Source: Rhodamnia argentea (lineage: Eukaryota > Streptophyta > Magnoliopsida > Myrtales > Myrtaceae). From it: 64,000 nt of DNA. The DNA lies in contig NC_063151.1 of assembly GCF_020921035.1 (NCBI RefSeq), positions 33,486,934-33,550,933 of the forward strand, read 5' to 3'. The notes beneath the pieces were generated by a model. It ran no database searches. It worked only from the letters and a program-made list of their open reading frames with translations, and was not told the origin of the DNA. The position numbers and the translations under genes are program-made. Below, piece by piece: positions 7,701 to 54,019 of this stretch (position 1 is the first letter of the stretch; each line of letters opens with the position of its first letter).

Positions 7701-8459
7701 ATAACATATATGACATATAAAACAGAACTAGAGAAAGGAGCAGTAAGTACAAGTTAATTGCATCTTGCTTTTCGCTATCAGTGTAGGTGTTACTGTAATA
7801 TCTTTTGATGGACTTGAGAAACTCTTTGGATTGGGTGGTAGCCTTCCACTTCCCCTGCCTCTCTGTGAACACCTGAGAAAGAAGAATTAGCACCAGTTTT
7901 CTAAATGGAATAAGAAGGCAATACATGAGCTTGAGCACATTGATGAGATTCTGCACCAACTTAAAAAAGAGAAGATTACAGTGTAATGAGCTTCAGAACC
8001 ACCTTACTGTTGCGCGAGAGCATCACATATGCTCTGATACATATCCATTAGTGCAGTTGCAATGCTACTGTTAGGATCCAATATCGGCATGTCTGTCAAA
8101 CCCATTGCATGAAGTTGGTGGCCTAAAGCTTCCAAACCGTAAGCATATTGAGCATCAATTGTGCGGTCCAAACACTCAATGCAGTTGGTACGCAGAACAC
8201 CACTTTGGAAATGGGGGTTTTCCCGTCCATGACCATCCTCCCTGCTATTTTGACTGGACTCAAAGTCTCCCTCATCTCGATTATTTCTGATATCTAGATT
8301 TCCATTGCTGTTTCCGACCCTAGAATGATCCCACGATTCTGATCTAAGATCTCTCAGAGAAGTATCCCTGCAATAAAAGCAATGAGCCATGAAAAGTAAA
8401 AAAGCACACAAGAACCTACAAAAAGAAATTTGAAACAACGACAAGGAAAAGGGTCCTCC

Positions 8460-9540
8460 AATTAGCTAGTCCATATAAAACCAATCCTACATGTCTAGAC
8501 AAACTTTTTTATGTTTAGCTCTTTGGCCTTGAAAAAGTAATTGTAACGAGAACTACAGCTACAACTCAATTTTCAACACTTGAAAAGGCCAAAAGCAGAT
8601 GGATACATTAAAGCAGGCATGTCTGCACACCTTAAAAAGAACTCTCTAGCGAAGCCGCTAGTTATAACAATATAAATCCAGATTCTATACTTTCAGTAGG
8701 GGAATTCGCTGAAGTTCAACTAAAAAGCCAAAAGAACCCTAATATTCGCATAATGGCTCTCTGTATTATCGAAAGATTGTCCTGTCTTTTCCCTCTGAAT
8801 CATTAAAAAAATCACCAGAGGTGTGCAAAAGTAGCTCTAAAGACTGCAAACAATGTGAAGAGTCTCAATTGTGCCTCCTTTTGTAGTTTTTGATCAACTA
8901 ATCTTGTTCAAGAAAGTAACAAGTTTAAAAGTTATGATTTCATCACTTTTGAATGAGGATTCCCTTTAAAGGAGCTATTTTTGCAATTGCCAAGTATTCG
9001 CTTTCTACCGTTATTAATGAGTATGAAACAGCAAGTTCATGTTTGAGGTCAGATATATGTGATTCTTTTCTTGGAGGCAACGATTGACATTTGATTGTGC
9101 AAAAAGGTGGTCGTCCTAATCTTTATGACTAACGATATTGTCTGAGATAATATCTCTAGTTCGTAGAATCTCACAATCTTAGAATGACATTTGAATTTCG
9201 GACACCCGTCAACCCAGTTAAGCAAGTGATTTTAACTATGTTGTCTCTTCCATCCTCAGAGCATTTTTCTTATTGCAGAAAAAAAAAAGGTCAAGGAATT
9301 CCACGCAAAAAAATCTCCTATGTGAACCTTCTTGTGGCAAGGAACTAATGCTCAAACACAAGTAGCCTACAGCAGTAATTTGCCATCATCTACTACAATC
9401 CGAAACCCCATACGACCGTGCTGCGTTAAATTTGCTTCTAACAGTCAGATAATCATGCAAGGTAATATAAAAAAACGATGACGATTAGCAGGCATAACTG
9501 AAGTGCTTTGATAAATACTCGGAAGCTCTTCATATTACAA
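8460..9540. other. Intronic AT-rich stretch of the SAC remnant
   Basis: Sequence between the SAC exon ending near 8370 and the foldback element at 9.5 kb. The exons that should follow FAK (family motif SKSANVL, GFYFSGKP) were not found here, so part of the gene is missing or too decayed to read. Nothing else recognised. Confidence 0.35.
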
Positions 9541-11569: not shown

Positions 11570-12320
11570 GTGGACTTGCGCGTGTGACGAGGGATTCGTC
11601 AATTTTGAAGGCCAGGAGCAATCAGTTATTTGTAGATGATGTTTAAGTTTCCTTTTCCCCACATTTTCCGTTGGGTTTTTCATGTTTGAACTTTTTGGAG
11701 CAGAGGTATTATTTGGTTGGGAGGTATTATACAGTGGCTTTGTGGGCACGATGTTTGATTCTTTTGCTATTCTTGGTCGTAACTAGAAAGTCACGTCTCT
11801 TGTTATTTTATCATTTCCCATTTAACTCCAGTCCTCCATTTTCCTGTCCTTGATTGTTTTCTTTCTCGTTTGTGACCCTCTTCTTGGCCATATTACGTTA
11901 AACTTATCATACAGAGTCCCCCAGTTCAGTGCATAAAACTTGCTCCAGTATGATTTTAGGAGTTAAAAAGGACCGTTGCCTAATGAACGATTCGGTCGGG
12001 GAAACCACTTTCAGATGAAGAAAGGGCACGGAGCGCTGCTGAAGGAGACGGGCGAGCTCAACACGTCATGAAGAGTGGATGCTTGTGCAACTATTTACAC
12101 CGCTGATGAAGCGCGGCGGCACGTTCGGCTGTCTCCAAGCTAAGTCTGGCAAGTGCTCGAACGGTCTCGATAGCTAGCCGCCGGAAAAACAAGTGAAACA
12201 CACGTTGAAATCACGAGGGCTTTCATCCCAAGGATCTGTCCCAAATAGGAGCTTGAATTTCGAAATAACTTGCAACAAATTACAATCTTGTTATGTGGCC
12301 AATGCAGTTTCACAACGAAC
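11570..12320. other. Spacer, nothing recognised
   Basis: Mixed-composition sequence with only short open frames. No family, RNA gene or clear repeat recognised. Confidence 0.35.
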
Positions 12321-12323
12321 GAG

Positions 12324-12524
12324 ACCCTAAAAGAGCCTCTCATTCGTGCCCATTTCTCCTAGTTCATAACACAAAATTGAAGGAATAAATGACTTGAAAA
12401 AAAAATTGTTAGTACGATGCGAAGATTTAATATGTTCTCTGAAAATAAAAAAAAGTTTAGGACGCGCATGGCAATACTTTTGAAGTAGAATTCCACTCCA
12501 AAAGTGCTTTTGGAGCAATCCGTT
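12324..12524 (-). repeat. 200-bp dispersed repeat, copy 1
   Basis: In reverse complement this reads CTAACGGATTGCTCC, then a direct-inverted CCAAAAG/CTTTTGG motif, then CATGCGCGTCCTAAACTT, and ends AGAGAGGCTCTTTTAGG-like. The same sequence occurs in the opposite orientation at 25,456-25,640, with its tail displaced to about 25,860-25,915. One end abuts the large inverted repeat starting at 12,524. No coding capacity, so a non-autonomous element is the likeliest reading. Confidence 0.7.
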
Positions 12525-14446
12525 AGGAGACTAATGATTTCACCATCTCATATGCATTTAAATCAAAAGAAGAATATAGCGGCCGATAGAATACAGTCCT
12601 GCGTGCCTTGAGGTGGAGTTTGAGGTTGCTGAGGTTTATGCATAGAAAGTCGAGCTTCATATTTCTATTTCAAATTGTTTTCTATCATCTCGTAGAGCTG
12701 ACAAATGTTGTCTCTCCATTCTCTCTCTCACCTTCCATAGCATCTTTCTTTTGGCCTGAAATTCTTTATCACTTCCAAATTCCTTTCCTCACGGGTGGAT
12801 GCGACCACCCCGGCTTTTATATCCATGTGGTTCTACTTAAAAAAATCAAAATTGACGAGAGTTTTATTAAACAAACATGGAGCAGTGATTTGTCAAAAAA
12901 TTAAATAGATTAGAGATTGCTCGGATAAAAATATACATATGCGAGTAGCCATTAATGGCTAGACTTCGCATATTTCTTTTTGCTCACTTTTCATATGCTT
13001 GAAATTCTATTTCTGATATTCCGTCGTCAAATGTCTTTCCTAACCATCTTGGGCCATAACCGCCACGCCTTTTAGGGTTATATGGCTCAACTAAAGGAAA
13101 AAAAAACAATAGATAGATATCCGTGAGTGTTATATGGCTCAACTAAGGGGGAAAAAAAACAACGGAATTAAATCATAGACTCTTGCTAAGATAAAATAAA
13201 TATACATGTAGCGGTAGTACACGCTCAAAACGTCAAGGTTTGCTCTTAAAGCGTTAGCTTGATCCAAAGAGATCCTAGATCCAAAGCGTCAACCATAAAT
13301 GGTCGAGGTAGAGTAGATCTTCATTGTGGCTTCTTCTGGGCTGTGCAAAAAGCAATATATAAATTGCAATTGATCTTTTTTTTACAATGTGGTCGTGAGC
13401 TTCATGACTGCCACTGTCTGTTTGAGCTTGAAACATGATAAAGTTAGTTCATTTGTTTCCTCGCCGAGCATATTACCGAGGCCGGTGCTATACCCTGTAC
13501 TCTCCATGCGCTCATCTCGTGTTCCATTACTAAACAGACAGACAGTGGCAATCATGAAGCTCACGACCACATTGTAAAAAAAAGATCAATTGCAACTTAT
13601 ATGTTCCTTTTCGCACAACCCGGAAGAAGCCACAACGAATATCTACTCTGCCTCGACCATTTATGGTATCTAAGATCTCTTTGGATCAAGCTAATGCTCT
13701 AAGAGCAAACCTTAACATTTTGAACATGTACTACTGCTGTATGTATATTTATTTTATCTTAACAATAGTCTATGATTTAATTCTGTTGTTTTTTTCCCCT
13801 CATTTGAGCCATATAACGCTTATAGATCTCTATCTATTTTTTTTTTTCCCTCGGTTGGGCCATATAACTCTAAAAGGCGTAGAGGTCATGACCCAAGATG
13901 GCTAGGAAAGAAATTTGACGACGGAATATCAGAAATAGAATTTCAGGCGTATGAAATGCAAGCAAAAAGAAAGATGCGAAGTCCCGCCAATGATAATAGC
14001 TACTCGCGTATGTATATTTGTATCTTAGCAATCTCTAATCTATTTAATTTTTTGACAAATCATTGCTTCATGTTTGTTTAACAAAACTCCCGTCAATTTT
14101 GATTTTTTTAAGTAGAACCACATGGATATAAAAGCCGGGATGGTCGCAGCCACCCGTTAGGAAAGGAATTTGGAAGTGATAAAGAATTTCCGGCCAAAAG
14201 AAAGATGCTAAAGGAAGGTGAGAGAAGTAAGAAGAGAGAGAGTGAATGGAGAGACAGCATTTGTCAGCTCTACGAGATGATAGAGAACAATTTGAAACAG
14301 AAATATGAAGCTCGACTTTCTATGCACAAACCTCAGCAACCTCAAACTCCACCTCAAGGCAAGCTAGCTAGGATTGTATTCTATCAGTCACTATATTCTT
14401 CTTTTAATTTAAATGCATATGAGATGATGAAATCATTAGTCTCCTT
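12524..14446. repeat. 1.9-kb inverted repeat, two arms of about 0.9 kb
   Basis: The left arm, about 12,524-13,425, is mirrored by the right arm, about 13,532-14,446, with a loop of about 106 bp. Examples: GGTGGAGTTTGAGGTTGCTG at about 12,611 pairs with CAACCTCAAACTCCACC at about 14,338, and GGTCGTGAGCTTCATGA at 13,391 pairs with TCATGAAGCTCACGACC near 13,555. By eye the arms agree at about 90 percent over most of their length with small indels, so the duplication is not brand new. Both arms carry fragments of open frame (for example QLYEMIENNLKQKYEARL on the right arm, +) that match no family I know. No target duplication was found. If transcribed across, it would fold into a long hairpin. 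Confidence 0.9.
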
Positions 14447-14449
14447 ATT

Positions 14450-14845
14450 CTCTTACCAAGCACAATGTTACAGTTGGCAACTTCCTCCCGATAACCATTC
14501 CTACCTTCCTTTAAAAGCTTCAACTTTTCACCATAGGCTTGCTCTCCTTTGTCAGTTTCTTCCAAGAGAGATGACTCGGGAATGGTGCGATGGGTAATAG
14601 GATGCCTGAAAATAGAGCAATGAAAATTTTAGACCAAGAGATATTACCATATAAGGAGAAGCATTACTCGACCATCTTGGAATATTCAATGCATTAGCTA
14701 GCTTCATAAGGGAAATCATAATATCCTTAATTGGTTGGCATCACGTCAATTATGTTTCCAACATTGAATTTGTACTACATAGGAAGAGGAAGTTCCTTTT
14801 CCTTGGCAAAGCACAATCCATCGCTTTGGCACTTGGAAAAACTAT
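14450..14845. other. Spacer between the inverted repeat and the tandem array
   Basis: No gene, RNA or repeat recognised beyond short open frames continuing out of the inverted repeat. Confidence 0.35.
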
Positions 14846-14846
14846 A

Positions 14847-16325
14847 AGTACTGTATGAGCCATTTGCTGAATGTGAATTCAGAGCTTCCCTAGCCAGTGC
14901 ATGAGTTGCCTCACAATAAAATCTTAACCAGCATACAGAGGTCTAAAGATAAACAGGAACAAAGTACCAACTACATCAAGTGCTACTCCATTTAAGGCTC
15001 AAGGGAAGATTGCAACTTCATGCAGGAGCATAGGAGAATATTTTAAATTATTCATTTTTTGAGTACGGTAGTTGAGTTTCGTTCTGTTGTTGGGTTCCTT
15101 TTTGGTTCTTTCTTATGTTTAAAGAGTCCAAGTGGTACTAGTTTTACTTCCTAAGGTAGGAATCCTACTAATAAAGGGTCTTTATGCCTATTCATTAGTC
15201 TTGAAAGGCTGTTTTCACATTAGAGAGCATTCTTCATTGTTGGGTACAGTTTCTCTCAAGGGACTTGTTCTTTCTTATTTGATATACACAATCAATTCCT
15301 TGCTGAATTTCCTGCTTAATCATACTGTTAACTTGCCTCTATCTTTTCATCTAAAGTTATTATTTGGTTTTTCTATTAATGACTAGTAAGTACTGTATGA
15401 GCCATTTGCTGAATGTGAATTCAGAGCTTCCCCAGCCAGTGCATGAGTTGCCTCACATCTTTAGATGTTAACTAGCCTACAGAGATCTAAATAGATAAAC
15501 AGGAACAAAGTACCAACTACAGTTAGTGCTATCTCCATTTAAGGTCCAAGAGAAGATTGCAACTTGATTAGTCTTGAAAGGTTGTTTTCAGATTAGAGAG
15601 TATTCTTCATTGTTGGGTACAATTTCTCTAAGGGGACTTGTTCTTTCTTATTCGATATACACAATCAATTCTTTGCTGAATTTCCTGCTTAATCATACTG
15701 TTAGCTTGCCTCTATCTTTTAATCTAAAGTTTTTTTTCTTTTTTCTTTTTCTATTAATGACTAATAAGTACCGCATGACCCATTTGCTGAAAGTGAATTC
15801 AGAGCTTCCCTAGCCAGTGCATGAGTTGCCTCACAATAAAATCTTTAGATGTTAACCAGCCTGGAGAGATCTAAATAGTTAAACACCAACAAAGTACCAA
15901 CTACAATAAGTGCTATCTCCATTTAAGGCAAAAGAGAAGACTGCAACTTGATTAGTCTTGATGCATGAGCATAGAAGAATATTTTAACTTATTTATTTTT
16001 CGAGTACAGTAGTTTGAGTTTCATTCTGTTGTTGGGTTCTTTTTTGGTTCTTTCTTATGTTTTAAGAGTTCAAGTGGTACTAGTTTTACTTCCTAAGGTA
16101 GGAACCCTACTAATAAAGGGTCATTATGCCTATTCATTAGTCTGGAAAGGTTGAATTCAGATTAGAGAGTATTCTTCATTGTCGGGTACAGTCACTCAAG
16201 GGACTTGTTCTTTCTTATTCGATATACACAATCAATTCATTGCTGAATTTCCTGCTTAATCATACTGTTAGCTTGACTCTATCTTTTAATCTAAAGTTAT
16301 TGTTTGCTTTTTATATTAATTACTA
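14847..16325 (+). repeat. Tandem array of about 540-bp units, three copies
   Basis: Units begin with a GTACTGTATGAGCCATTTGC-like motif at about 14,847, 15,387 and 15,765. The first and third units are about 540-560 bp. The second is about 378 bp because it lacks a roughly 160-bp segment present in the others (ATTTTAAATTATTCATTTTT through GTCCAAGTGGTACTAG). All share TTGTTCTTTCTTAT and CACAATCAATTC blocks. Several open frames of 80 codons repeat from unit to unit, but the encoded peptides are hydrophobic and unrecognised. They are probably not genes. Confidence 0.85.
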
Positions 16326-17078
16326 AAAGACAGGCCATTCCTATGTCATTTATTCAAGACATTGCGTTGTTTTATGAACTTTTTATGCAGGGGACGATGA
16401 GAACTGGCTCGTTTTCGTTGCAAATCCAAAGTCCTTCCCTAGCAAGGACAAACTTATCTCGAGTTCCATAGAGATACTTGCCAAGGTGGTTGGGAGGTCA
16501 ATGGTTGTGTGTTGGTTCTTGAGTGTTGCGTGTTCGGTGTTGGTTCTTAGTCATTGCTAATCTCTTTCATTTCGTCTAATCACTACTGCAGGGAGCAAGC
16601 GAGACATAGAATCTATTCAATCGCAATACGCAGCTATTTTTTCCTTGGGTTCAGGGCATATGTGCCCAAGCATCTTCTGGCCAAACTCCAGAGTAAGATT
16701 AGAGTTAAATTTTTATGAAGCGACGGTAGCGAATCAGTTATACCTGTTAATTAGTGCTGTTTTTGTTAAACAGATCTGCCATGGGTAGGAGTTGGCGTAA
16801 GATGTCTCCGTCTGGACACCATCCATTGAAAGATGGGCTTGCTGCAACTAACTTTTTTGCTCGTCATGCTCTCCTGTGAAGCAGTGAAGCAACAGTGAGA
16901 TAACATAGGTTCCTTACAAATGTAACAGAGATAGTATAACTGTCAAGGGTACTCCAGAAAGTCTAGATATTTTGGCTCAAAAGGAGACTCCATAGGGATG
17001 CATACAGTCAGCATCAATGCTCTAGGGTAAAGATTCAGCGAATTTCCAGGTAAATGAAGTATTCAAACCTGACACATG
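16326..17078. other. Spacer with an exon-like + strand stretch
   Basis: After a TTTATGCAG acceptor-like site the + strand at 16,392-16,500 reads without stops (DDENWLVFVANPKSFPSKDK), but I recognise no family and see no continuing exons. Around 16,830-16,880 a segment resembles 21,920-21,965 in the IDM1-like remnant (GATGGGCTTGCTGCAACTA), showing a local partial duplication. Confidence 0.4.
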
Positions 17079-36130: not shown

Positions 36131-39035
36131 ATGGGCCCACCCGATTCTTCCGGCGCCTGTTCGCCGGAGGGAGAGCTCCCGCTCCTGGGCGGCGACATCG
36201 TGGACGGCGCCGTCGACTACAAGGATCGTCCAGCTCGCAGATCCTGCTCCGGCGGGTGGAGATCTGCGGCCTTCATCATCGGTAAAAGAGTTGAGAAAGC
36301 TTTTGTTGCACTGATTCGCATGAAAGGCGTGATTACGCCACGTGGGTGTCGGTAAAGTTCGAGTCTTTTGATGCCGTGTGCTAATTGGCCAGGCGTGGAG
36401 GTTGCCGAGCGATTTGCGTATTATGGGATATCGGCGAACCTGATTACCTATTTGACGGGCCCGCTGGGGGAGTCGACGGCGACGGCGGCGGAAAACGTCA
36501 ACCTGTGGTCGGGGACGGCGTCTCTGTTGCCTCTCCTCGGTGCCTTCGTCGCCGATTCTTACCTGGGACGTTACCGAACCATCATCATTGCTTCTCTCGT
36601 CTATATTTTGGTTCGTTCCAATCTTCAATCATTTCTTGTCGTGATCATAGATTTGGAGTTTGTCGAAATTGTTAAGAGTAATTAGGTGAATGTAGCTGAA
36701 ATATGTTTTGTTCAGATTATAGTGCCATTTACCTTTCTTTTTGGCAGTGATAAGTGCTTCTTGCAATTGAAACGAAAACTTCCCAACAATTTTTGTGAAA
36801 AGCAGTTGACTGAATGAAATTATCTTGAATGAACACGAGAGAATACTATTGGAAGAGTGCTTGAAACTCAACAAGCAGGCAGGCCCAATTCATTCTGCCA
36901 AGACTATGAACTGCAGAAAAGAAGTACTTTTCCTTTTGTGGGCGAGTGTTGTAAAGAATTGAAAGGAAAGGAAAAGGGGAAGTCACCCAGAAGTTCTTTT
37001 TTGACAACTGCGTTAAGGACACAAACTTTACCCAGAAATTGTGGGGAGTTTTGGGTTGTTTTTTGGGAGAGGGGGGGGTGTTGTGTGGTGGGTGGTGGGG
37101 TGGTGATAGAGAGAGTTCGGTCCCAGTTGAGCACATTGCTGGAAATCTGCTTGACTTACCGAAAGTAGCCTTGCATTACATGTCTTACTTGCAATCCTTT
37201 TCGAGGTGGCTGATGTTTAAAGAAGATTAGGAACCCAAGATTTCTCTAAGTGATGATGGCCCTTTGTAGTTTATGCACACAGGTTTATGCACACAGATAC
37301 GTGTTTAAATCTTCTTCTTTCATGTTTAAAGGGTAGCAGACTGAGATTGTTGTGAAATTTGTGGCAGGGACTGGCTTTGCTGACTCTATCGGCTGTCCTC
37401 ACTTCTCTTGGCACATCTGAATGCCAAAACACCACCAGGATAACATCCTGTTCATTCTCTAAACTCCATGCCATCTTGTTTTTCTTCTCTCTCTATATGG
37501 TGGCTGCTGGACAAGCTGGCCATAAACCATGTGTTCAAGCTTTCGGGGCAGATCAGTTCGACGAACAAGACCCAGTGGAGAGCAAAGCTAAAAGCTCTTT
37601 CTTCAATTGGTGGTATTTTGGCTTATGTGCAGGAGCCACGGTAACATTTGTGGTCATAGTTTACATTCAAGACAACCTCAACTGGAGCCTTGGATTTGGC
37701 ATTCCCTGTATTATAATGGTGGTCGCTTTGGTCATTTTCTTGATGGGGACGAGGACTTATAGATTCAGCAACCGAAGTAATGGAAGGAGCCCATTCATAA
37801 GAATTGGCCATGTTTATGTTGCTGCAGCTAAAAATTGGAGGAAGATTGCTCCATTGTTGCCTAGTGAAGAGGAAGCTTTAGAATTGACTCCAGAGAATTA
37901 CAAGCAATTCGAGTACTAAATTCATTGATGCCTTTAGTTTTTTTCTCTTTTTATTTTTCTTGCCAGTAGCACAAATTGCAGCGTCTTCTAAGCTCAAGGT
38001 TCCTAGCCTTAAATGGCCTCTTGGTGGCAGGTTCAATGCACTTTAAATATTCGTCTTAGAAAGCTCAGCTGACTAGTTATCCCACTAAATTCTGCTTGCC
38101 TTTGATACAGCAGTGACTAAACTAGGAACTAATGCTAGATGTTAATATCACTTATTTCTTTTTCATTACTTGTATTAGCTCGAGGTCACTTCATGCCTAC
38201 ATATTCCAGACTCAATTTGATCTCTCTATCTTGCAGGTTTCTAAACAAAGCTTTGATTATAGCAGATGACTCAAAAGAAAACCAAACTAGTGCTGACGAT
38301 GTTGAGGAAGCAAAGTCCATACTACGGCTTGTTCCAATATGGCTGACAAGTCTGGTATTTGCCATTGTCTATGCACAAACCTCAACCTTCTTTACGAAGC
38401 AAGGAGCCACAATGGACAGAACCATCTTCCCAGGCTTCGAAATACCAGCTGCATCACTCCAAGTATTTACAGGACTCGCCATTGTCATCACTATCCCGAT
38501 ATATGATCGGGTTTTTGTCCCTATAGCGAGAAGTTTAACCAACAAACCCTCTGGAATCACGATGCTGCAGAGAATAGGGGCCGGGATGTTCCTCTCGATT
38601 CTTGGTATGGTCACTGCAGCCCTAGTTGAAACGAAAAGACTGGAAATTGCCCGAGAATACGGGCTGGTGGATATACCAAATGCCACGATTCCGATGAGCG
38701 TGTGGTGGTTGGTTCCCCAATACGTGCTTTTCGGGCTCGCTGAAGCTTTGACCATGGTTGGTCTGCAGGAGTTCTTCTATGATCAGGTCCCCTCTGAATT
38801 AAGGAGCGTTGGAATGTCGCTTTACCTTAGTGTTATTGGTGTAGGGAGCATTCTAAGCAGCATCCTTATCTCAATCATCGAAGCAGTGACTGGTAGTGAC
38901 GGTTGGTTTTCGAATAATCTTAACAAGGCGCATCTCAATTACTTCTATTGGCTGCTTGCCGGGATTGGTGTAGTTGGATTAGCCTTATTTTTCTGTTGCG
39001 CAATGACATACATATATCGGCGGAGGGCAACCTGA
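36131..39035 (+). CDS. NRT1/PTR family (NPF5-type) transporter, gene 1 (570 aa)
   Basis: Proton-coupled MFS transporter of the NPF/POT family; NPF5 members move nitrate, peptides or other small solutes, some at the tonoplast. Exons: 36,131-36,281, 36,393-36,610, 37,368-37,912 and 38,237-39,035, all GT-AG, total 1713 nt including TGA. The proton-coupling ExxER motif is intact (Glu53-Arg57 in [12 protein letters not shown]). Other family blocks: [83 protein letters not shown] and the final [17 protein letters not shown]. Twelve membrane spans are expected, with a loop around residues 260-320 spanning the exon 3/4 joint. An in-frame ATG at 36,053 would add 26 residues but lacks family support. 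Its tandem partner lies 1.0 kb downstream. Substrate cannot be read from sequence. Confidence 0.93.
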
Positions 39036-39039
39036 TGAT

Positions 39040-40030
39040 CGGCATACAATGATTGAAAATAGTACTAGAATGAACAGAATGCTTTTCTCCTCTTTCCTCT
39101 TTTCCTCTCGAATTAGCTGTCGCCTCAGTGTACTTTTAATCGGACATTATTTTCTTCAGGGCATGAGTTGGTGCAATCCTGGAGAGAAGTTACACGAATA
39201 TGTAAGTTGATTTGTATTTGTAAGTCAATGATTCCCTAGTAGTCCATGAAAGTGGCTTCCTGGCTTGAGTTTCCGGAAAGTTGTATTAGTTAGCAGAAAA
39301 TTGAGCTGGTTTGCCCGAGAACATGAGCCAAATACATGTCAACTGCTGCATCATGCCGGCTTGCGCAGGGCCTGCTCAATTTAGGGCCGATATCAGGCGG
39401 TTTGTCCAAGCTATAGGACTGAATTCGAAGGGACCTCATGGTAAGTATTTTGTGAAGATCTTTCTGCTAGCGAATTGGAGTTGTGAAGTCTGCAGAAAAG
39501 CTGTCACTGGTGCTGTGCATTTGTCTCTTGCAAACTACACAGCCCAGTTCAGCATTCCTGACCCTCTAATTCGTTCTAATCTAATCTAATTCAATGATTT
39601 GAGAATTAGATGTGAGCACTGAGCATCATTGGGTTTCCTAGGAAACAACAAACACAAATGTCCATCATCATTCAATCCGATTCCTCTCACTATTCTCTTC
39701 CATTGAAACGAACACCCTTCTGAATTTCTCCTTGAAATAAAGAGTGAACATTTCAGATTTTAGACGTTGGAAGAAGAAGAAGAAGACGACATTTTAGAGA
39801 CGTCAAAAGGTTGCCACTTTCCACATAATTTGTCTTTTTTCGAGAGATTTTTTTGAGTGTTCCATATGACTCAATTGACAGGCCATCGTCGTGTTAGAGC
39901 ACGCAAGCTTTCCGGATGACGCAAGCGAACGACGACGCCCCAAATTGTCCGAACACGTTCTCAAGAACAAACGAACGTGAACCATTGGAAAGTCCTTGAC
40001 TTTATCTATTGTGAGTCCTCGGCTGCTGTA
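39040..40030. other. Spacer between the two transporter genes
   Basis: The 3' flank of gene 1 and promoter of gene 2. A 92-codon open frame at 39,311-39,589 has no recognisable product. No repeat recognised. Confidence 0.4.
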
Positions 40031-40038
40031 GCTGGACG

Positions 40039-43000
40039 ATGGGAACCACACCCACCTTCTTCGCCGCCCACTCTGATGATGCCGAGACTCCCCTGCTCCG
40101 AGACGCCGTCGACGGCGCCGTCGACTACAGAGGCCGTCCCGTCGCGAGATCCGCCTCCGGCGGGTGGAGATCCGCCGGTTTCATCATCGGTAACTCGGCT
40201 TTTTTGTCGCCGTACCCTTCTTCCAGCGACGAACGACGAGTGTTTGATGATTGTACGCTGATCGAGGTTGCTATTTTTTGTGTTTCGTTCAGGGGTGGAA
40301 GTGGGGGAGAGGGTCGCGTACTACGGGATCTGTTCGAACCTGATAAATTACTTGACGGGGCCGCTCGGTCAGTCCACGGCCGCGGCGGCGGCGAACGTGA
40401 ACGCGTGGTCGGGCACGGCGTCGCTCTCGCCTCTAGTTGGGGCTTTCGTCGCCGACTCGTTCCTCGGCCGCTACAGGACCATCGTCGGTGCTTCTCTCCT
40501 CTACATCTTGGTTAGTTTCTCTCTCTTATAGATGGATTCGATTGCTATTGATGTCTAGTGTAAACAATTAGACAACAAATCAATCAAAGAAGGCGTCTTT
40601 GATTAGAAACTGGTAAAAGATCTTCCCAGTAGTTTTCCTGCATCATCTACGTATGGACACTTGTTGGATTTGTTCTGAACACACAGAAAATAACAAATGG
40701 ATTGTACTGGTTTTACTTGACCTACTCTCTCTACTAAAGCTCAGCTCTTTTGAGTGATTGACTTCTAAAATTGAGTGAAAAATATTGCATAGACTCTGTC
40801 CATGGAGACTAACCTGATCGTATCTATTGAATGTGTATGCGCCACACTGGTAACCATAGGATGAATGGCTACAATGACCTTGGTCTATAATAACTTATGC
40901 AAAGTTGAGTAACCTATTTGCGTTACAGTGGTTGAGCGAGTGGAATTTCTTATTTTTCTCTCCGTGGGCTACATATGTCACTACGATAGCTACGTGACCA
41001 GAAGTATATGAAGTTCATTTAGCAGTCTTTTGTGATTGCTCTCGGTTTCTACAAACTGTTCATTTAGCAGTCTTGTTCTGTATTTCTTAATTTAAAGATA
41101 CTTGGAATAGGGGTCAACTTCAACGGACTTCTGTCTGTAAAGCTCTGATATGGCCATAACATACTGCAGTTTACAAAGCATCATCAATTCACTCCATATA
41201 TATTTGGGAGAATGACAATGTTTTCTCGGTTCCACAAATGATGCAGGGGCTAGGCTTGTTGACTCTCTCAGCCATGATTCCGTCTTCCGGTACAACTGAT
41301 TGCCAAAGCAATGGCACGATTCAAACCTCTTCTTGCTTTCCCCCTCTCCACCAAGTGGTGTTGTTCTTCTTTTCTCTGTATCTGGTAGCATTTGCACAAG
41401 GAGGCCACAAGCCCTGTGTACAGGCATTTGGTGCTGATCAGTTCGATGGGCAAAATCCAGAGGAGTGCAAAGCCAAAAGCTCATTCTTCAATTGGTGGTA
41501 CTTTTGCATGTGTGGGGGAATGTTAGTAACGCTTCTCATCCTGAACTACATACAGGACAACCTTAACTGGGGTCTGGGATTTGGAATACCTTGCGCTTAT
41601 ATGGCAGCCGCTTTAGTTCTTTTCCTGCTCGGTACCAAAACATATCGCTATAGCTTCAAAAATGATGAGAGAAGCCCATTTTTGAGGATCGGTTCTGTGT
41701 TTGCTACAGCAGCTAGGAACTGGAAAACCACCACAATGGCATTAGTTGCCGAAGAAGAATCTCGTGGAACCTTGCCTTATGAAGGATCTGGCCAATTCAA
41801 GTAAGAGGGCGATTTTTGAAATACTATGAAGCAATTTACTAAACTGGGATTTCCAGCGGTATCTCCAAAAAGTTTGGTGTTTACTAGACCCTCATTTCTT
41901 TTGGTTATATGGCACACTGTTAACATAAGGATATAGGGCTGTGGTAATGGAGTCTATGTCATAGAGTACTATGTGTTTTAGCATTTGTTAATCAGAATCA
42001 TTTTCTACTCCTTAACATCAAATGCTGATTTTTTTCACCGTTACTATTAAATTATCTCACATTGATTGACCATGGGTTGTTTGGTTCTCTATGTGGTCGC
42101 CCTCAACCTAATAGTTGAAACTTTTGGTTGGACCTTCCAACACTTAGAATTATTTTGACTTGAATGACTACTCATGACAGTCATTTGATCTGTTCTTATA
42201 CTTTTCACGCATTCATCTCACAAAGGATGTCCACAGGAGATTGTGCGACTTAAGAGTCACGTTCGCTTCGTGTACTGTATAGGGGGTACCATGTTTGTGC
42301 CTCTTCTCATTAAAAGTACTCTGTATAAAGAACCACAGTGATGGCTAATGGTGACCACGACAGGATGAATGCATGCAATTTCCAAGATACTTGATCTTAG
42401 CTGAATGCCATCTAGCTGTCATTTAAGTGTCTGGATTTGTGGCGGATTCTAGATCAGCTGATTGATAACTAGGAAAAGAACATTGATCACCGTTTTGTCG
42501 GGAAATGCAGTTTAGTCCGTCAATGAGATATTTTCCCTTTACATGCAAACTATTGTATGGACACTTTTCATGGTCATTTATAGTGCAAGGACTTTAATTA
42601 CGAAATCCACACCCACCTCAGTGTAAGATGACAGACTTCCTCTGCTTGTGATTTCCATCTACTAACTTCTTGCCCAAGATATTACCTTGATAATATTACA
42701 TCGTTGAACTTAAACAGGTTCCACTAACATCTCAATATGGATAATCTCTGTGGCAGGTTCCTCAATAAGGCCTTGCTATCGTCGGACGGTTCAAAGGGCG
42801 ACGGCAAGGTTTGCACCTTTGGTGAGGTGGAAGAAGCGAAGTCAGTATTAAGACTCACTCCAATATGGGCGACAAGCTTGGTTTATGCCGTAGTATTTGC
42901 TCAGTCCTCTACTTTTTTTACCAAGCAAGGAGTAACTATGGACCGATCCATCACACCTGGATTCGACGTTCCACCCGCGTCACTACAGTCCTTCATCAGT

Positions 43001-43573
43001 CTTTCAGTCGTCCTGTTTATTCCCATCTACGACCGCGTGTTCGTTCCTCTAGTGAGAGGTTTTACTCAAAGACCCTCTGGCATCACGATGCTCCAAAGGA
43101 TAGGGACTGGGATGTTCTTATCTGCTGTTTCTATGGTGGTCGCCGCACTAGTCGAGATGAAAAGACTCGAAACTGCTCGAGAACACGGACTGGTCGATAA
43201 GCCTAACGCGACTGTTCCAATGAGCGTGTGGTGGCTGATTCCTCAGTATGTCTTGTTTGGGATCTCGGACGTGTTCACAATGGTGGGTTTGCAAGAGTTC
43301 TTCTATGATCAGGTTCCAAGTGAGTTGAGAAGCGTGGGCCTTTCCTTGTATCTCAGTATTTTCGGTGTCGGCAACTTTCTCAGCAGCTTTCTCGTGTCTG
43401 CCATAGCGGAGGCGACCGGAGGCAACGGGAGAGAGAGCTGGTTTGCCAATAACCTCAACAGAGCTCATCTAGATAACTTTTATTGGCTCCTAGCCGGGCT
43501 AAGTGCATTGGAACTGGTCGTCTATCTGTATTTTGCTAAATCTTATATCTACAACAGGTCAAGTACAACATAA
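40039..43573 (+). CDS. NRT1/PTR family (NPF5-type) transporter, gene 2 (579 aa)
   Basis: Tandem paralogue of gene 1 with the same four-exon plan: 40,039-40,189, 40,293-40,510, 41,247-41,800 and 42,757-43,573, total 1740 nt including TAA. Exons 1 and 2 are exactly the same lengths as in gene 1 (151 and 218 nt). The ExxER motif is intact (Glu53-Arg57 in [12 protein letters not shown]), as are [65 protein letters not shown] and [17 protein letters not shown]. It differs from gene 1 mainly in the N-terminal tail, exon 3 end and C-terminus. The last intron is near 950 bp against 320 in gene 1. Both proteins look functional. Divergence in the termini hints at different regulation or targeting, which is inference. 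Confidence 0.93.
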
Positions 43574-44329: not shown

Positions 44330-46300
44330 ATGTCGTTATTTAAGAAAACAACCGCTATAATCATAAAATAAGATCGTAGTTGGAACGTGGCCCCCAAAAT
44401 CCACCTAAAGATACGAAGGTGTTGCTGACTGCTGACAGCCTCTCGGGGCCCACATATTCGCTGTCGCCTGCAACAACTATATTTGCTTAGCTAAGCTAAA
44501 ATCTTACTCAGTTCTTGTTAAACACGTTCAAAAGTGGGTCGATAATCTTTTTAGATTTGAAGTTCACAGCTAGGCGTCATCTTCAACGTTAGGACCATAT
44601 TGGTTGAGGCTGGCCATCAGTTGGTCGAGGTCGAATCCTATACTGAAAAAATATTTAAAATATATTAAATTAATACTTCTATCTAACAACTTAAACTTCT
44701 AAAACCACAAAATTTCACATTTGTGATGCACATGAATTGACATAGGATTCTAGACGTATATGATAGTATAGTCGAGCCGGAAGCTCGCGGCACGTAAAAA
44801 GAAAGAAATATAGAGACAAAAGCAATGGGAGTGATAGTGATGATCGAAGAAACTAATCACGGTTTTTTTTTTTTTAATCCCGAAAGTGTTGATGATGAGT
44901 TTCGCAACATGGCACATTTTTAGAATATCATTATTGGGTGAAGAGAAAAATCCCGTGTTTTCTTATTCGGAATGGGATGTTATTATTAATTGTCCTCCAA
45001 GTCAGAGCTTTTCGATAGGCAAGAGGTTATCGTGCACTGCGATCGCAAACGATATAAGATGAAGGACAGGAAAGTAATTCTATTTGTTTTGGTTACTAAT
45101 CGAGACTTAAAACTAAATTAAATTTTTTTAGAAGTCCCAAAAGCGAATTACAAATTTAAATCAAAATGGTGTCTAAATATAACCTATTGGTTTATTATGC
45201 AGATGGATTGTGATAATGAGTCACGATGTGTCTACAGGCTGTCTTCAGCAAATGCCCTATTATCTACACAAGTTGGCGCCGTGCACCAAATCTCATGACA
45301 GTTATTATTGTAATAATGAAAATATTTAGCATTTGGACATTTTTGTTGTTGGTCTAATAGCATTCGGACATTACTTTTGGGAAAATAGTATTCTAACAAT
45401 CCAATATCCTCCTCTCATTTTACTCGTCAAGACAATCACTATGCACGTTTTCAAGGCTATTTGAGGACGAGAAATCGACACTTTCATTCAAATAATAAGA
45501 AACGCATCAATGAACTTGATGATTCTATGAGCTAAATACTTAGTGTTGGAACTACCGTTGCCCGTTTTAGAAGCTTTAGAAATTTAAACGCATATGAATA
45601 CGTAATTTACAATTTGGATCCGATATATTTTCCGCTTGAAATAACCCAACCACATATAATCTTGCAGATGAAAATGGAACTTCTTTTATCATCATAGTCA
45701 TGAACTTTTACAGCTTAAGTATATGTTTAAGTGGGTATTTTCCTTTTAACTCTCGTAACTTTGAACAAGCATTGACTTTTCTTATTTCGATTTTGATTTG
45801 GTTATAGCCACATTCTAATCGCAATTTCCAACATTTGAAGGGAAAATCATTCTCATGATCACTAAGGGGTATTAACGAAATACTCACAAATTTCATCAAG
45901 AATAGCTGTTTACAACTTCTTCTTCTACTTTTTTGGTGAAATCAAAGTAGAGGAGAGAGAAATCGTTTCGATTGAAAGACGTAAATGTGCCACAAGGGTT
46001 GATGAAATCAACATGGACTCCATACTATAAAAAGCGAATATAAGGTGGAGTGGAATGAAATGATTGACTTGAGTCGCTGGAAAAAGTGACAAGGAGAGAG
46101 TGACAGGAATGCTATGGGCCCCACAGAAAAGGAGAGGGGGGGCCAAAAGCAGGTCCAAATTAGAAAAATATGGGAGTGGGGCCCAAAAAGTAAAAGAAGT
46201 CGATAATCTGAGTTGGCTCACCTCCTCCCAACAGACTGTCCCTTTCCCGAGAAATCCCGCGCTCACCAACTCCGAGTTACAAATACGAACACCTCCCTCT
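44330..46300. other. Spacer and promoter region of patellin A
   Basis: AT-rich DNA without recognised genes. The final 80 bp hold a CTTCAT hexamer run (about 46,306-46,330) and a (CT)n run (46,362-46,380) in the probable 5' leader, common in plant 5' UTRs. Confidence 0.4.
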
Positions 46301-46392
46301 ATTCCTCTTCATCTTCATCTTCATCTTCAGCCCCTTTCCGCTTCATAAACCAAGACAAAATTCTCTCTCTCTCTCTCTCAAGTTCGACGCTC

Positions 46393-48647
46393 ATGGCTGA
46401 GGACCCTCAGAACACACCTCCCGCTTCAGAAACGCCGGCCCCGGCGGAGGAAGTTGTGGTGGGGGTGGTTCCGTACGTGCCGCAAGCAGCCGAAACACCC
46501 GCCGCCGGAAAAGAGCCGCCGCCTTCGGAAGCCGCCGGAGAGGACGGGCATAAGGTCCCGGAGGGGGAGTTGGAAGAGAAAATCGTGAAGGCCTCCAGGT
46601 TCGCTTCCTTCAAGGAAGAGACCAACGTGGTCGGGGAGCTCCCGGAGGCCCAAAAGAAGGCCCTTGACGAGCTCAAACGCCTCGTCCGGGAGGCTCTGAA
46701 CAAGCGCGAGTTCACCACTCAACCATCACAACCGCCTCCTAAGGAAGAAGAGAAGAAGGAAGACAAAGAGGCGGTGAAAACGTCCGCCGATGGGCCTTCG
46801 AGGCCTGAAGCCGAGGCAGCCACGGAAGTGCCGCCACCCGTGCCAGTGGAGGAGGCGGAGGCGGTGGTGATCATCCAGGAGGTGGTGGAGAATGTGACTG
46901 CGGTCGAAGAGGATGGCGCCAAGACACTCGAGGCCATCAAGGAGACGATAGTCGAGGTGTCCATAACTGCCTCCGCCGGAAAAACAGAGGAGGCGGCGGC
47001 TCCGGCTCCGGCTGCGGCCATAGAAAGCAAGAAAGAAGCTGAACCCATGGCAGAGCTAGAGGAGGTGTTCATCTGGGGAGTCCCGCTCCTCGGCGACGAC
47101 GAGAGAAGTGACGTCATCCTCCTAAAGTTCCTGAGAGCCAGGGACTTCAAAGTGAAGGAGTCCTTCGACATGATCAAGAGCACAGTCAGGTGGCGCAGGG
47201 AGTTTGGCGTCGACGGCTTGCTCGAGGAGGACCTCGGCACGGACTACAACAAGGCGGTGTTCATGCGCGGGCTTGACCGGGAGGGCCACCCGGTGTGCTA
47301 CAACGTGTACGGCGAGTTTCAGGACAGGGAGCTGCATCAGAAAGCTTTCGGAGGCGAAGAGAAGAGGAAGAAGTTCCTCAAGTGGAGGATCCAGTTCCTG
47401 GAGAGAAGCATCAGGAAGCTCGACATGAGCCCCGGTGGCATCTCGACGGTAGTTCAGGTGATTGACCTGAAGAACTCGCCAGGGCTTCTCAGGAGGGAGC
47501 TGAGGAAGTCCACTGGCCAGGCTCTCCAGATTCTTCAGGACAACTACCCTGAGTTTGTAGCCAAACAGGTAAGACATGGTATTATACGTCAACCTCCCAT
47601 AACTGTTTTGTCTTCAGAATGCGAGACATACCATAACTTTGTCTTATAACACAATGAAGGATGCATAATGTAGGTTCGTTTTCCTAGCTATTTCCCTAAC
47701 TGATTAACATGTTCTCGGGGACGAAATCATGTACACGAACTTCGATGCGCCGACTATGTCAGCTCGAAAACCTCCAACAGAGTCTGACGACTCTGTCTTA
47801 TATTGAGTGAAGGTGTTCATCAATGTTCCATGGTGGTACCTGGCCTACAACAGGATTATCAGTCCTTTCTTGACGCAGAGGACCAAGAGCAAGTTTGTGT
47901 TTGCAAGCCCATCAAGAACTGCCGAGACACTCCTCAAGTGATTCCCTTGTTCTGGTTTCTCTTTCATTTTCTCGATCATCACTTGCTGTTTGGTCAATGT
48001 GGGCCTCTGAAACACCTTCATAACGATCTGTCAGAAGAATTTCTCAGTCTGATTCTTGATGATGAAACCAGATACATAGCGCCCGAACATTTGCCGGCGC
48101 AATATGGCGGGCTAAGCACGGAGGAAGAGCAGGAGTTCACGGCTGCTGAACCAGCTACAGAGGTCGCAATCAAGCCGGCAACCAAGCACATTGTCGAATT
48201 CCCCGTTGCCGAGGTAGGCTATTCTTCACGTCAATTACAAACTTCGTCAACATTTGTATTTATTTCTTCTTCTAAACAACCTAGAAATGATCTCAACCTT
48301 GGTTGGTCAGACGTGATGTGCTCTATTCTTGTGTTGTCAACTGTTTTGTGAAATGAAAAATACGGTGTAATGTGCAGACATGCCTTGTGGTCTGGGAGGC
48401 TAAAGTGGTGGGGTGTGACGCGAGCTACGGGGCCGAGTTCGTTCCGAGTGCCGAGGGTTCCTACACCGTGATCGTGCAGAAGACTAGGAAGATAACTCCG
48501 GCCGACGAGCCCGTCATCTGTGGCCGCTTCAAGGCCGGGGAACCGGGCAAAGTGGTGCTCACGATTGACAATCAGTCCTCCAAGAGGAAGACGCTCCTTT
48601 ACAGGTCCAAGACTAAGGCCTGCTCGGAAGACCAATGCCCTTGTTGA
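46393..48647 (+). CDS. Patellin A (Sec14/CRAL-TRIO plus GOLD, 570 aa)
   Basis: Phosphoinositide-binding membrane-trafficking protein of the patellin family, known at the plasma membrane and cell plate. Exons: 46,393-47,568, 47,813-47,937, 48,072-48,213 and 48,378-48,647 (1713 nt with TGA). The long N-terminal part (residues 1-220) is acidic and rich in Glu, Pro and Ala, with the patellin block ASFKEETN. The CRAL-TRIO N region starts near VFIWGVPLL (about 225), with LLKFLRARDFKVKESFDM; the lipid-binding domain follows (PVCYNVYGEF, FLERSIRKLDMSPGG, ILQDNYPEFVAKQ, VFINVPWWYLAYNRIISPFL). The GOLD domain begins around YIAPEHLPAQYGGL and includes TCLVVWEAKVVGCDASYGAE. Exon 2 is joined at AA|A (Lys) using a GTGATT donor. 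It ends in Cys-Pro-Cys, unlike patellin B. The PATL3/5-like length suggests that subgroup, with less certainty. Confidence 0.92.
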
Positions 48648-48649
48648 TC

Positions 48650-49240
48650 AGTAACTTGGATTGCTTTTAGCAATGCGTTTTTTTTTTTTTTTTTTTGAGT
48701 CAGGCTTTTCTCTATCTCTCCATCGTTTTTCATTTTTGAAATATTTCAATTGTATTTGCCGATTTAAATATGTTCTATTTTTGTTCTGTCTGAATTCAGG
48801 AAAGGGAAATACTTTCTTATCGATATGAGTATAATCTCAATCGTAGATTCACATATCATCATCGCATGTTTTGCATAAAAGCACTCATTGATTGAGAGAT
48901 TGTCTTGTCAAAAATACCTGACAGTACTATAAAACTGTCGGACTGTTGTTAAATCCAATTGATTATTGTGAGGACTTCTTTACACTTCTTATTATTGAAT
49001 TTTTTCGGAATGGTTTGAACCTGTATAAACTAAACTCTGCATGCCTTTCTCTTTAACTTTATCAGCTGATAAAGCCTCTTCACTTCGCTCCTTTTCAGCT
49101 GCCTCGCTTTCTTTTGCCCTCTGCATTTGCATTATGAGGGGTGGGGACATTCTCAAGCAATCATTCCATAATCCCCGGTTCACATGACTCGTCGGATCAT
49201 GCGAGTTCTCACTCTCCACGTAAAACTATCGCTTAATTTA
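48650..49240. other. 3' flank of patellin A
   Basis: A T tract at 48,680-48,697 and AT-rich sequence of the probable 3' UTR, then spacer. Nothing else recognised. Confidence 0.35.
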
Positions 49241-49244
49241 TTTT

Positions 49245-49790
49245 GGGAAAAATAAATAATTTTAAAAATTATTTTTTAAAAATTAATTATCTATATAGTT
49301 TAAAACTCCAAATTGACTAATTTTTTTTATCACAAAAAACCTTAAACTGGTATACCCGTGACAAACTTATCACCCGTTAAATTACTGAGTTAGATAGCTC
49401 ATGATCGTAGACGAGTGTACCGATTTGAGAATTTTTACTCTTCGTTTATCACTTGTGTGCTAGTTTGGGATTTTTGTGGTATTAAGTAATTTAACGGAAA
49501 CTAAGATATGTTCTATTTGTCACAAGTGTACCAGTTTAAAATTTTTTATGATAAACATATCTATTTGTGATAAATTTATCAAAAGTGTACCACTTTAAGA
49601 TTTTTCGTGGTGACCCTTTGAAATAATTAGCCAATGATTTCTTTTGGCATTATCGATAATAATAATATGTCTAACATTTTGTGAGTAATGAAAATAGTTT
49701 TCTTTCATTCATTTTTGTATGTAATATAAGCGGTCATTTTTTAAAAAAATATTTTTCAAATAATTTATTTCCTGCCAAACAAATGCATCC
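49245..49790. mobile_element. Foldback-like element, family C
   Basis: Outer arms are AT-rich inverted copies (about 49,245-49,285, AATAATTTTAAAAATTATTT, against 49,740-49,775). Inside them, the left part (TCACAAAAAACCTTAAACTG, GTGACAAACTTATCACCC at about 49,330-49,375) is mirrored by units on the right (TTTGTCACAAGTGTACCAGT at about 49,515 and AAGTGTACCACTTTAAGATT at about 49,580). Non-coding, with no GC core. Confidence 0.55.
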
Positions 49791-49794
49791 TACA

Positions 49795-50165
49795 TGTCTG
49801 ATGTTAAAAGATCTACTACGTTGGTGCATTTTGAGAGCTGACGAGATAAGCTTTGGGTGATGGATAATTACATTGTTGAGAATTTTTATGAACTCATATA
49901 AGGAAAGAGCAGACCAATCCCATTCTATTTGGCCCTATAGATTGAGAGAGTATGAGTTTTGATGGTCGATGATTTTAAGAAGATAGCAATTTATGAACAT
50001 TTAAGGAAACCTACTGACTATAATTTGGTGTTAAACTTTATGTATTATTGCCAATTCAATCATAAACATTTCAATTGGACAAAGTTAGACCTAGAAAAAG
50101 CTTTGCTAGGATTTCCTCCACCTTTCCTCTTCCCTTGGAAAAATAGCTGCCAATCTGCCTTCGAG
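49795..50165. other. Spacer, nothing recognised
   Basis: AT-rich, with a single 72-codon open frame that matches no family. A TGCCAATTCAATCATAAAC phrase at about 50,049 recalls a family A arm. Confidence 0.35.
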
Positions 50166-50180
50166 GGAGAGAGGTAGGGA

Positions 50181-50231
<51 letters not shown>
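50181..50231. repeat. (CT)n microsatellite
   Basis: About 25 perfect CT units, the longest dinucleotide run in the window. Confidence 0.95.
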
Positions 50232-50232
<1 letters not shown>

Positions 50233-50805
50233 TGGCCTCTTTGAAGCTTTCATTTTGTTTATGTGAATAAATTTATGCAACTAATCTTGAGTGAAAGTGA
50301 AGATTAATTTGGTCATCCATCCAGTCGATAGCCGCCAATGAGGATATTCATGACGTTGCTCCACAACATCTCCAAGATTAAGTTGATATTCTCTCCCGAT
50401 TTAGACTTAGGTCAAGTTTTGGGAATTTTACTCTCCCAAACTAGATTTAAATATAGATCTAGGAGTTTTCCATAAGTATTATATCTGTTCTTTCAACATA
50501 TTCATGTTGGTGTCTGCACGACAATGTTGATGAGGAAGTCGAACTTAGACGTGCACCACAAGCCGTTGTAAATGGAGAGAGAGATATCAGCATGTGCTTA
50601 TCACTAATTCTAGTGATCGATCGCCTAAGTTTTACAGTGATAGATTTATTTTGGGGGGAGGAGAGTGTGTTTTTAACTACAAATTATGCTTTATTATTTA
50701 CTTTCTAGCTTTTGATTTGTTCGGAAGTTGTTTGGAATTTGGTAAAATTGGAAGATCTAATTCTCAAACTGTTATTATGATATGAATGTCATCTTTGTTT
50801 TGACA

Positions 50806-52270
50806 AAAAAAAAAATGGACAAATTTAGTCCTAAACTTTTTGCATTTATACCAATTATGTCCATCCGATCAATTTTGATAGAAAATCACCGACATGGACG
50901 CCGGTCGTTCTATGTAGAGTCATCAATATGGGTGTTTGACCCACTTTTTAACCCACTTTTATTCAATTGGGTCACATATGTGTTAGTAGATAAAAATGAG
51001 TTTAGACTTATAAAGCCTATTCAAATATGGATTTTAACTCAACTCATTTTCGACCTATTTTTCGCCATGGTTGCACCTTCCCTAACATCACTTGTAAATG
51101 GGCCTCAATCATATTAATTTATATTTTTATTTTTTAAAAGTTTTTCTTTAAGTAAAAGAAAAAAATTAAAAAAAGTAAAAACTATTTTGGAACGCCGCTA
51201 CCGCCATCACCCGGGACCAACGCCGCTACCGATTGCTAACCGGAGACGTGATGGAAATTTTAGCTACGAGAACAAAATCACTTGGACTATGCATATATGA
51301 GTTCAAATCGTGATGGAATTTTTAGTTAAGAGAACAAAATGAAAAAAATCCAAGGTGGAAAAGTTGATATTGCACACAGCATATATGTGTGCCAAATTCG
51401 ATCCGAGCTCATCTTTGTCCAATCGGGCTGTTATTGGCACGACAATATTTATTCCCGCCTTACGAAATTAAATTTTCCTCGTGAGAATTAACTCACCGGC
51501 GAAGTGGGGACTGCCATGCTCCCCTTCAATAGAGTAATTGGAAACGAGTTTTCCTTTTCCTATGAGAATCAGTCGGAGGAAATATGTTGACTCGTGTCGA
51601 TGCAAACTTGTTCCGGATGCATTCGCCAATCGGGGGTGGCAGTGGGAGGGCAGAGGTGGCGAGGAGTGGGGGGCGATGGTAGGCGGTGGCAGGGGGCAAT
51701 GGCAAGTGGCTGGTAGCTGTGAACGGCAGCGGGCAGAAGTGGCGGACAACGGGTGATAATAAAAAAGATATTTTTATACAAAAAAAAATCTTTTTTAGAA
51801 AATTTTAAAAAAAAATCAATTGCATGAAAATGTTTTAGCAATATTTTTTTTCTTAATAAATTATAAGAAACAAATATTTCATAGTTTGGTTTTTTTTTTG
51901 TCACATCATTATTTGGTTAAATATAGAAGTTTTCAAGTAATACAAGTTGGGTCGGGTCAACTATATATCATTAAATTAAATCTTGTATGAAAATAAATCA
52001 AAACGCGTTAAATGGGTCGAACAATATTCGATCCGGCCCAAACCCGACCCGACCCATCCATTTGATACCTTTAGTCCTATGTGGCAAGACATCATTGATG
52101 TGAATAAATTTTATAATTTTTAAATAAATTTTTTTAATTTTGTATTTCTTGTCTTCTTTTTTTTTTTTCCTTGTTTTTTTCATTGTTGCTTGTGAAGGTC
52201 GCGGCTCTCGCCTAGACCATCGCAATATCCAGCGAGGCCAACCGTCACCCAAGCGAGTGTTAGCGGTCCG
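50806..52270. mobile_element. Family A foldback element interrupted by a hAT-like element
   Basis: The left arm at 50,813-50,885 (TTTAGTCCTAAACTTTTTGC, ATACCAATTATGTCC) runs into GACATGGACGCCGGTCG. The sequence resumes at 52,074 with GTCCTATGTGGCAAGACATC, poly(T) and a GC-rich core (52,190-52,270, GGTCGCGGCTCTCGCC). Removing the 1159-bp insertion restores a typical arm-to-core transition. The right half is missing after about 52,275. Confidence 0.6.
50915..52073. mobile_element. 1159-bp hAT-like element with 8-bp target duplication
   Basis: The left end is TAGAGTCATCAATATGGG and the right end in reverse is TAAAGGTATCAAATGGATGG. It is flanked by GTTCTATG (50,907-50,914) and GTCCTATG (52,074-52,081), 7 of 8 identical. 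Subterminal GACCCA, GGGTCG and CCCGACCC repeats are typical of plant hAT elements. The interior carries no recognisable transposase, so it is non-autonomous. Confidence 0.8.
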
Positions 52271-52284
52271 CCCTAGGAACTAAT

Positions 52285-52980
52285 CAACGTTGATGTTCTA
52301 ACATTAGTTGTGGATTAGGTTGTGTCGAAAAACGACATTCACTATACTTAGGTAGTCATAATGTGTTGCTAGAGACCGCTTTTGGGCACTTTGCTAATGT
52401 CTAGTGAACCTATAGGGTTGCACACAATAGCGAACCGAGTTTATATTTTTCTCGTGCCTTGATCTACTTAAGAAGTAGATTTTAATTTATTCTCTTATTC
52501 TAAATATCTACGCGATCGTGCGTGTTATGAGATAACAAGAAACGCACGATTGGAGATAGACGGTTTGGCGGGCCCGAGCCACCCGACCCCACTTCTTTTA
52601 TTGCGCGTAAATATTGACACGTATATAAAGACGTGGAAAAACCCTAGAGAGGTGGATGAGAATAAAAACGCAAAGAGCCATTCTCTATTGTGAGATCTTT
52701 GAGAGAGTCTCGAAGATTAAAAAGGCAATCAAAGAGGAGAAGTTCCAAGATCCGTAAGCTAGCACTTGGATCGTTGGAGACTTCAATTCACGTGTGTGGA
52801 TACCGGTAGAGGCGCAACACTTAGGGCGTTAATCTAGACACAACGGTTCGTCAATTTAACTTCGATTCGCAAAAGGTACGCCTTGAACTTCGATTGATTT
52901 CAATATACGCATGGATCCTGTCTAGGGTTTTGATTTAGACTTATATTCTGCTGCGTTTTGACAATCCCGAAACCCTATCA
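52285..52980 (+). mobile_element. LTR-like fossil, probably a copia solo LTR
   Basis: The segment opens around TGATGTTCTAACATTAG, holds a TATATAAAG box near 52,623 followed by a leader-like region, and closes in TGCTGCGTTTTGACAATCCC ... TATCA, the usual style of plant copia LTR 3' ends. No primer binding site or pol follows on the right, so it looks like a lone LTR. Old; broken or solitary. Ends are uncertain. Confidence 0.35.
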
Positions 52981-52984
52981 GCGA

Positions 52985-53585: not shown

Positions 53586-53589
53586 TTTA

Positions 53590-54015: not shown

Positions 54016-54019
54016 TTAT

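Follow-up and report, generated by a model that had tools for sequence, protein, structure and literature searches.

The window, by which we mean the whole stretch of 64,000 nucleotides that was analyzed (C2:33486934-33550933), carries a large inverted repeat at 12525-14445 (Table 1). Downstream lie a tandem pair of peptide-transporter-like (NPF) genes at 37356-43573 and two Sec14/patellin-like genes of opposite orientation at 46207-58767, both pairs named by eye from open frames only. At 8004-8465 there is a minus-strand open frame without a Pfam match, which we take to resemble part of a SAC-type phosphoinositide phosphatase. Transcription of the repeat through this neighboring SAC-like gene was considered and rejected: a search for the Syja_N domain gave 24 matches, none of them inside the window. 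The nearest lies at C2:33450532-33456047, about 31-36 kb before the window start, and the gene found there is perhaps the source of the 8004-8465 frame. Scans for bacterial-type promoters (8 found, 7.5 expected, i.e., chance level) and terminators (4 terminator-like structures, 2.1 expected) use bacterial models that are uninformative for a plant.

Structure of the inverted repeat

The stretch 12525-14445 is a genuine inverted repeat. It matches its own reverse complement from end to end (blastn, 85.1% with gaps counted, E 0.0), and its arms are built of six collinear inverted blocks (I1-I6), the innermost pair being separated by 110 nt. When the exact arm ends are used, the arms are 90.9% identical over 886 aligned columns; a wider alignment gives 90.07% over 896 columns, with 63 transitions, 26 transversions, and 6 gaps that total 39 bases. 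A preliminary description of this DNA had put the arms at about 0.9 kb, their match at about 90 percent, and the loop at 106 bp, which was right to within a few bases, and the arm alignment that it had proposed as a check confirms the repeat. In grasses, intergenic DNA changes at 1.3e-8 substitutions per site and year. At this rate, which may not be that of the host, the divergence of the arms (K2P, 0.108) would place the duplication at about 4 million years ago.

Table 1. Features of the inverted repeat and its flanks (window coordinates)
Feature	Position	Strand	Basis
Left flank, 95% identical to window 25616-25458 (minus strand)	12369..12526	+	Homology ends at the arm boundary
Left arm, inverted, probably the derived copy	12525..13424	-	Block list and arm alignments; neither junction is continuous in the relatives found
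25-nt stretch identical to the C8 transporter exon, potential silencing site	13389..13413	+	Genome-wide pattern search
Loop (110 nt); on the minus strand, rest of the presumed WAT1-like exon and start of the intron	13425..13534	-	87% to C8:21531329-21531430
Fragment of a presumed WAT1-like EamA transporter gene	13429..13582	-	86% identical to the C8 gene; exon part 4 bases longer than in C8, frame shifted
Right arm, probably in the original orientation	13535..14445	+	C8 match spans the inner junction; C1 and C2 relatives span the outer junction
161-codon open frame without a recognized domain, spanning the outer end of the right arm	14112..14597	+	Dinucleotide shuffles, domain searches
Stretch collinear with C1:35138518-35139423 (77%), across the outer arm boundary	14411..15279	+	Alignment of the C1 relative

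Next to the inverted repeat, 14844-16326 holds several overlapping tandem copies, 87-89% identical by blastn except for one block at 70%. One more locus with this tandem unit was found, on C1, and the unit has no outstanding reading frame.

Copy number, direction of duplication, and transposon readings

We searched the genome to which the window belongs (346.7 Mb, 74 contigs). The left arm used as a DNA query found itself, the right arm, and a 64-bp stretch of C8; the right arm, at E values up to 10, found itself, the left arm, and a 45-bp stretch of C8. These counts of three matches each are lower bounds, because the searches score the best candidates only and skip very common words. By contrast, the left flank gave 26 matches, so at least its dispersed repeat was visible to the searches. 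Beyond these C8 stretches, the arms had no potential off-target elsewhere in the two arm searches, which would miss short matches. Hundreds of arm copies with shared ends, which according to the preliminary description would mark a foldback transposon, did not appear in the genome-wide DNA searches, nor did the several copies with shared ends that characterize foldback elements and MITEs. As far as these searches reach, the repeat does not seem to be a transposon family.

The relatives of the two arms differ in how they meet the arm junctions. On the inner side, C8 homology crosses the junction of right arm and loop without interruption (13582 to 13429), and the junction between the left arm and the loop has no C8 counterpart. 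On the outer side, the C1 relative goes on for 834 bases past the end of the right arm, and a relative at 6.87 Mb of C2, which matches 14411-14465 and, more weakly but collinearly, 14322-14382 and 14158-14304, spans position 14445. The left flank has its copy at window 25616-25458, where the sequence runs on into something unrelated. The junctions of the right arm are continuous in C8, C1, and C2, and homology breaks off at the outer end of the left arm. The simplest reading is therefore that the right arm is the original and the left arm its inverted copy, a direction that rests on three relatives, of which the one on C1 overlaps the arm by just 35 bp. The relatives on C1 and C2 also have in common 66 further bases that are absent from the window, which places an older rearrangement at 14410.

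The last ~78 bases of the left flank (12449-12526) belong to a dispersed repeat that contains a palindrome around CTCCAAAAG/CTTTTGGAG, and 23 of the 26 left-flank matches lie outside the window. As 21 of these 23 end at 12515-12524, the left boundary may lie at that repeat's own end. The C1 relative of the right flank has its own inverted repeat (C1:35137884-35138757), with arms of ~330-355 bp set 186 nt apart and 76-90% complementary by block, so that two inverted duplications occur in this low-copy family.

Could the locus be a DNA transposon of the gene-fragment-carrying or foldback type, either Pack-MULE-like or Tourist/Harbinger-like with a TTA target duplication? Tourist/Harbinger-like elements prefer TTA targets, and TTA stands on both flanks. 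The chimeric makeup of the locus, to which a captured transporter exon and its intron sequence belong, would also fit, as would the left boundary, no more than 10 bases from where the dispersed repeat ends. Moreover, a search for a 31-base arm-end pattern at a tolerance of 3 mismatches gives three places: the two arms and, with 3 mismatches, C2:6.87 Mb. However, this end-like relative is homologous beyond the supposed end, the C1 relative likewise extends past it, the genome DNA searches gave no further arm copies, and a comparison of the two flanks (32 bases up to 12526, 31 bases starting at 14445) shows no shared exact direct word of at least 5 bases. The TTA pair is not a target duplication if, as the alignments indicate, relatives continue across the right end. 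A Tourist-like element, suggested by the TTA flanks and the C2 match to the end pattern, was rejected on account of this homology across the boundary and the lack of a longer exact flanking duplication. The original remark that neither transposon ends nor a target duplication are visible thus holds up, TTA being the only candidate and the C1 alignment arguing against it. On these sequence comparisons, the transposon reading appears largely refuted, and we regard it as highly improbable.

A transporter gene as the source of the loop and the inner arms

The gene-derived part of the repeat consists of the loop and the inner ~48 bp of each arm (13376-13425 and 13536-13583), and it is for these arm segments alone that a homologous gene elsewhere, as expected of an hpRNA locus, was found. 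The matching C8 site lies in a transporter gene whose exons we picked by eye, and it comprises one exon together with the beginning of the next intron. The last two introns of the gene have GT/AG ends. The joined exons match the Pfam family EamA at 7e-13, with 49.5 bits where 28.2 are required; the last three by themselves, with 26.7 bits, narrowly miss this cut-off. The gene presumably belongs to the WAT1-like (UMAMIT) family; its protein had no match in the PDB. Used as a protein query, the C8 exons gave 30 matches, of which 2 are the window's own fragments; related exons are numerous on C6 and C5, occur at two other C8 positions and on C11, and appear as single matches elsewhere. The gene at C8:21.531 Mb appears to be the nearest relative of the window's fragment, because the DNA searches with arms and loop point there. 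Given the retained intron sequence and the 4 extra bases, the fragment is a frame-shifted genomic capture and not a processed copy.

The preliminary description had proposed that the locus could silence whatever its arms came from, and the complementarity that this would need is present as a perfect 25-nt match to the C8 gene. The right-arm counterpart of the 25-nt stretch (13546-13570) has 1 mismatch. With up to 3 mismatches allowed, the 25-nt pattern occurs at three places in the genome, namely both arms and C8, and a reversed control gave none. Hence, the site would be specific to the C8 gene if silencing happens. In the left arm, 30 of the 21-mers in 13376-13425 differ from the C8 exon at no more than 3 positions, and 5 are perfect; the right-arm counterpart has 28 such 21-mers, none of them perfect.

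The outer arms

The DNA and protein searches of the genome gave no intact parent for the other ~860 bp of each arm. The arms had been described as holding coding-like pieces. In favor of this, the 161-codon frame exceeds the longest frame in all 500 dinucleotide shuffles. Against it, the differences between the arms in 14112-14370 fall on codon positions 1, 2, and 3 in numbers of 3, 8, and 4, which gives no indication that a protein has been under constraint since the arms were duplicated. The left-arm counterpart of the frame is interrupted by stops. Besides the window, one relative of the coding-like piece was found, at C2:6.87 Mb, with 41% protein identity (E 0.007) and one stop; one parent search gave an extra match at E 0.84, and another gave the arms and one match at E 0.73 only. 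Among Pfam families, none scored above its cut-off with the arm peptides (UQCC2_CBP6 reached 18.3 and 16.2 bits against 27.9), and an arm peptide had six chance-level matches in the PDB (E 0.59-0.77). A search for a single-copy parent gene of the whole arms, which had been suggested at the outset, was unsuccessful, the part that traces to C8 being ~48 bp per arm and the loop. The original reading as an inverted gene duplication survives in modified form: this is a duplication and not a transposon, and its source gene was found for a part of the arms and not for the whole.

Predicted hairpin and decay of the arms

The locus has the long near-perfect inverted repeat and the short spacer of an hpRNA locus. 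The potential for a long hairpin RNA, noted earlier from the repeat itself, is borne out by the predicted folds of both strands, which have about 850 arm-arm pairs: the plus transcript folds at -1330 kcal/mol with 843 pairs and helices of up to 55 bp, and the minus transcript at -1373 kcal/mol with 863 pairs and helices of up to 80 bp. For either strand, this energy is about two to three times that of 12 random stretches from window 16500-64000 (-425 to -682), which were matched by length only and not by base composition.

The arms may nevertheless be inert debris, the product of the same inverted duplication that was never transcribed and has been decaying neutrally in intergenic DNA. The 10% divergence of the arms fits neutral decay. 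For the plus transcript, the 63 transitions comprise 26 G-U changes, which keep the pair, and 37 A-C changes, which break it (p 0.21), and so give no sign of selection for pairing. The absence of codon-position bias in the open frame and the tandem and dispersed repeats in the surroundings point the same way. The extent to which the arms still pair, in long helices, speaks against it. We consider inert debris a possible explanation, though not a probable one.

A test for a methylation-like mutation pattern gave mixed results. The ratio of transitions to transversions is 62:19 for the arms. Two local tandem comparisons have 21:26 (p 0.0005 against the arms) and 16:17, and the C1 comparison has 65:35 (p 0.10). 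CpG depletion is weaker inside the arms than in the adjoining sequence.

A young microRNA gene that arose by inverted duplication of the transporter would explain the unique 25-nt perfect target site. Foldbacks of miRNAs are short, however, and the 1.9 kb of this locus, with a stem of 900 bp, far exceed their length; nor does the region 12000-15000 have an Rfam match at E values up to 1. The locus does resemble the model of Allen et al. 2004, as cited in the available part of PMC3086885, in which young MIRNA genes arise from inverted duplication of their target genes: it too has an inverted copy that includes part of a protein gene and is complementary to that gene. It departs from the model in that only the loop and ~48 bp per arm are gene derived, most of the stem having no intact parent that we could find. 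We judge a microRNA gene to be very unlikely.

Discussion

The best explanation, in our view a moderately probable one, is a single-copy local inverted duplication that would give rise to hairpin siRNAs if transcribed. The structural origin by inverted duplication of a chimeric segment is its firmest part and very probably correct. In the history that we propose, a chimeric segment would have formed first, joining low-copy sequence with a coding-like piece to a captured fragment of the WAT1-like gene, and would then have been copied back inverted beside itself, leaving the 110-nt spacer. A transcript across the locus would fold into a hairpin of ~900 bp. A transcribed stem of this length is an expected substrate of Dicer-like enzymes in plant RNA silencing, and these enzymes would be expected to cut the hairpin into a mixture of 21-24-nt siRNAs. 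Such siRNAs may quite possibly be made in some tissue, which we put forward tentatively. Most of them would match the locus itself alone, and siRNAs cut from the inner ~48 bp might in addition target the mRNA of the C8 transporter.

Whether such an effect has consequences is more doubtful. Measurable silencing of the C8 gene is unlikely. The locus as a live trans-silencer, with inner-stem siRNAs repressing the C8 WAT1-like gene and the outer ~860 bp, of unrelated origin, serving merely to attract Dicer, is decidedly unlikely. Most likely, this is an ordinary inverted-duplication locus of a known kind, with a capacity for hairpin siRNAs if transcribed. If siRNAs are made, the locus would be instructive, since the direction of duplication, the source of the spacer, and the unique target site can all be read from its sequence, and it would allow one to ask how a chimeric inverted duplication becomes a regulator of a gene that supplied only a minor share of its sequence. 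If no siRNAs are made, it would be a well-resolved piece of ordinary genome debris.

The locus is not named in the available parts of the literature on plant inverted repeats, hairpin siRNAs, and Pack-MULEs, supplements excluded, which is a weak negative. Pack-MULEs, as far as the available part of PMC3310237 describes them, resemble this locus in carrying inverted repeats and a captured genomic fragment of a cellular gene, here an exon with the start of its intron. They have target duplications of 9-11 bp; the locus has none, no terminal family was found for it, and its relatives span its boundary. Another parallel is offered by the long inverted repeats of rice (PMC7649420, available part), probable hpRNA precursors of small RNAs, which coincide with small RNAs of 21, 22, and 24 nt; one example has arms of 1.3 kb and a 343-bp spacer. 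In a case on rice chromosome 12, a cultivar that lacks the inverted copy has almost no such reads (PMC7649420). For the rice repeats, small RNAs were measured and vary with the repeat between cultivars; at this locus they are a prediction, and its arms are shorter and ~10% diverged. What the rice repeats and this locus have in common are arms on the kilobase scale, a short spacer, and the potential to form an hpRNA.
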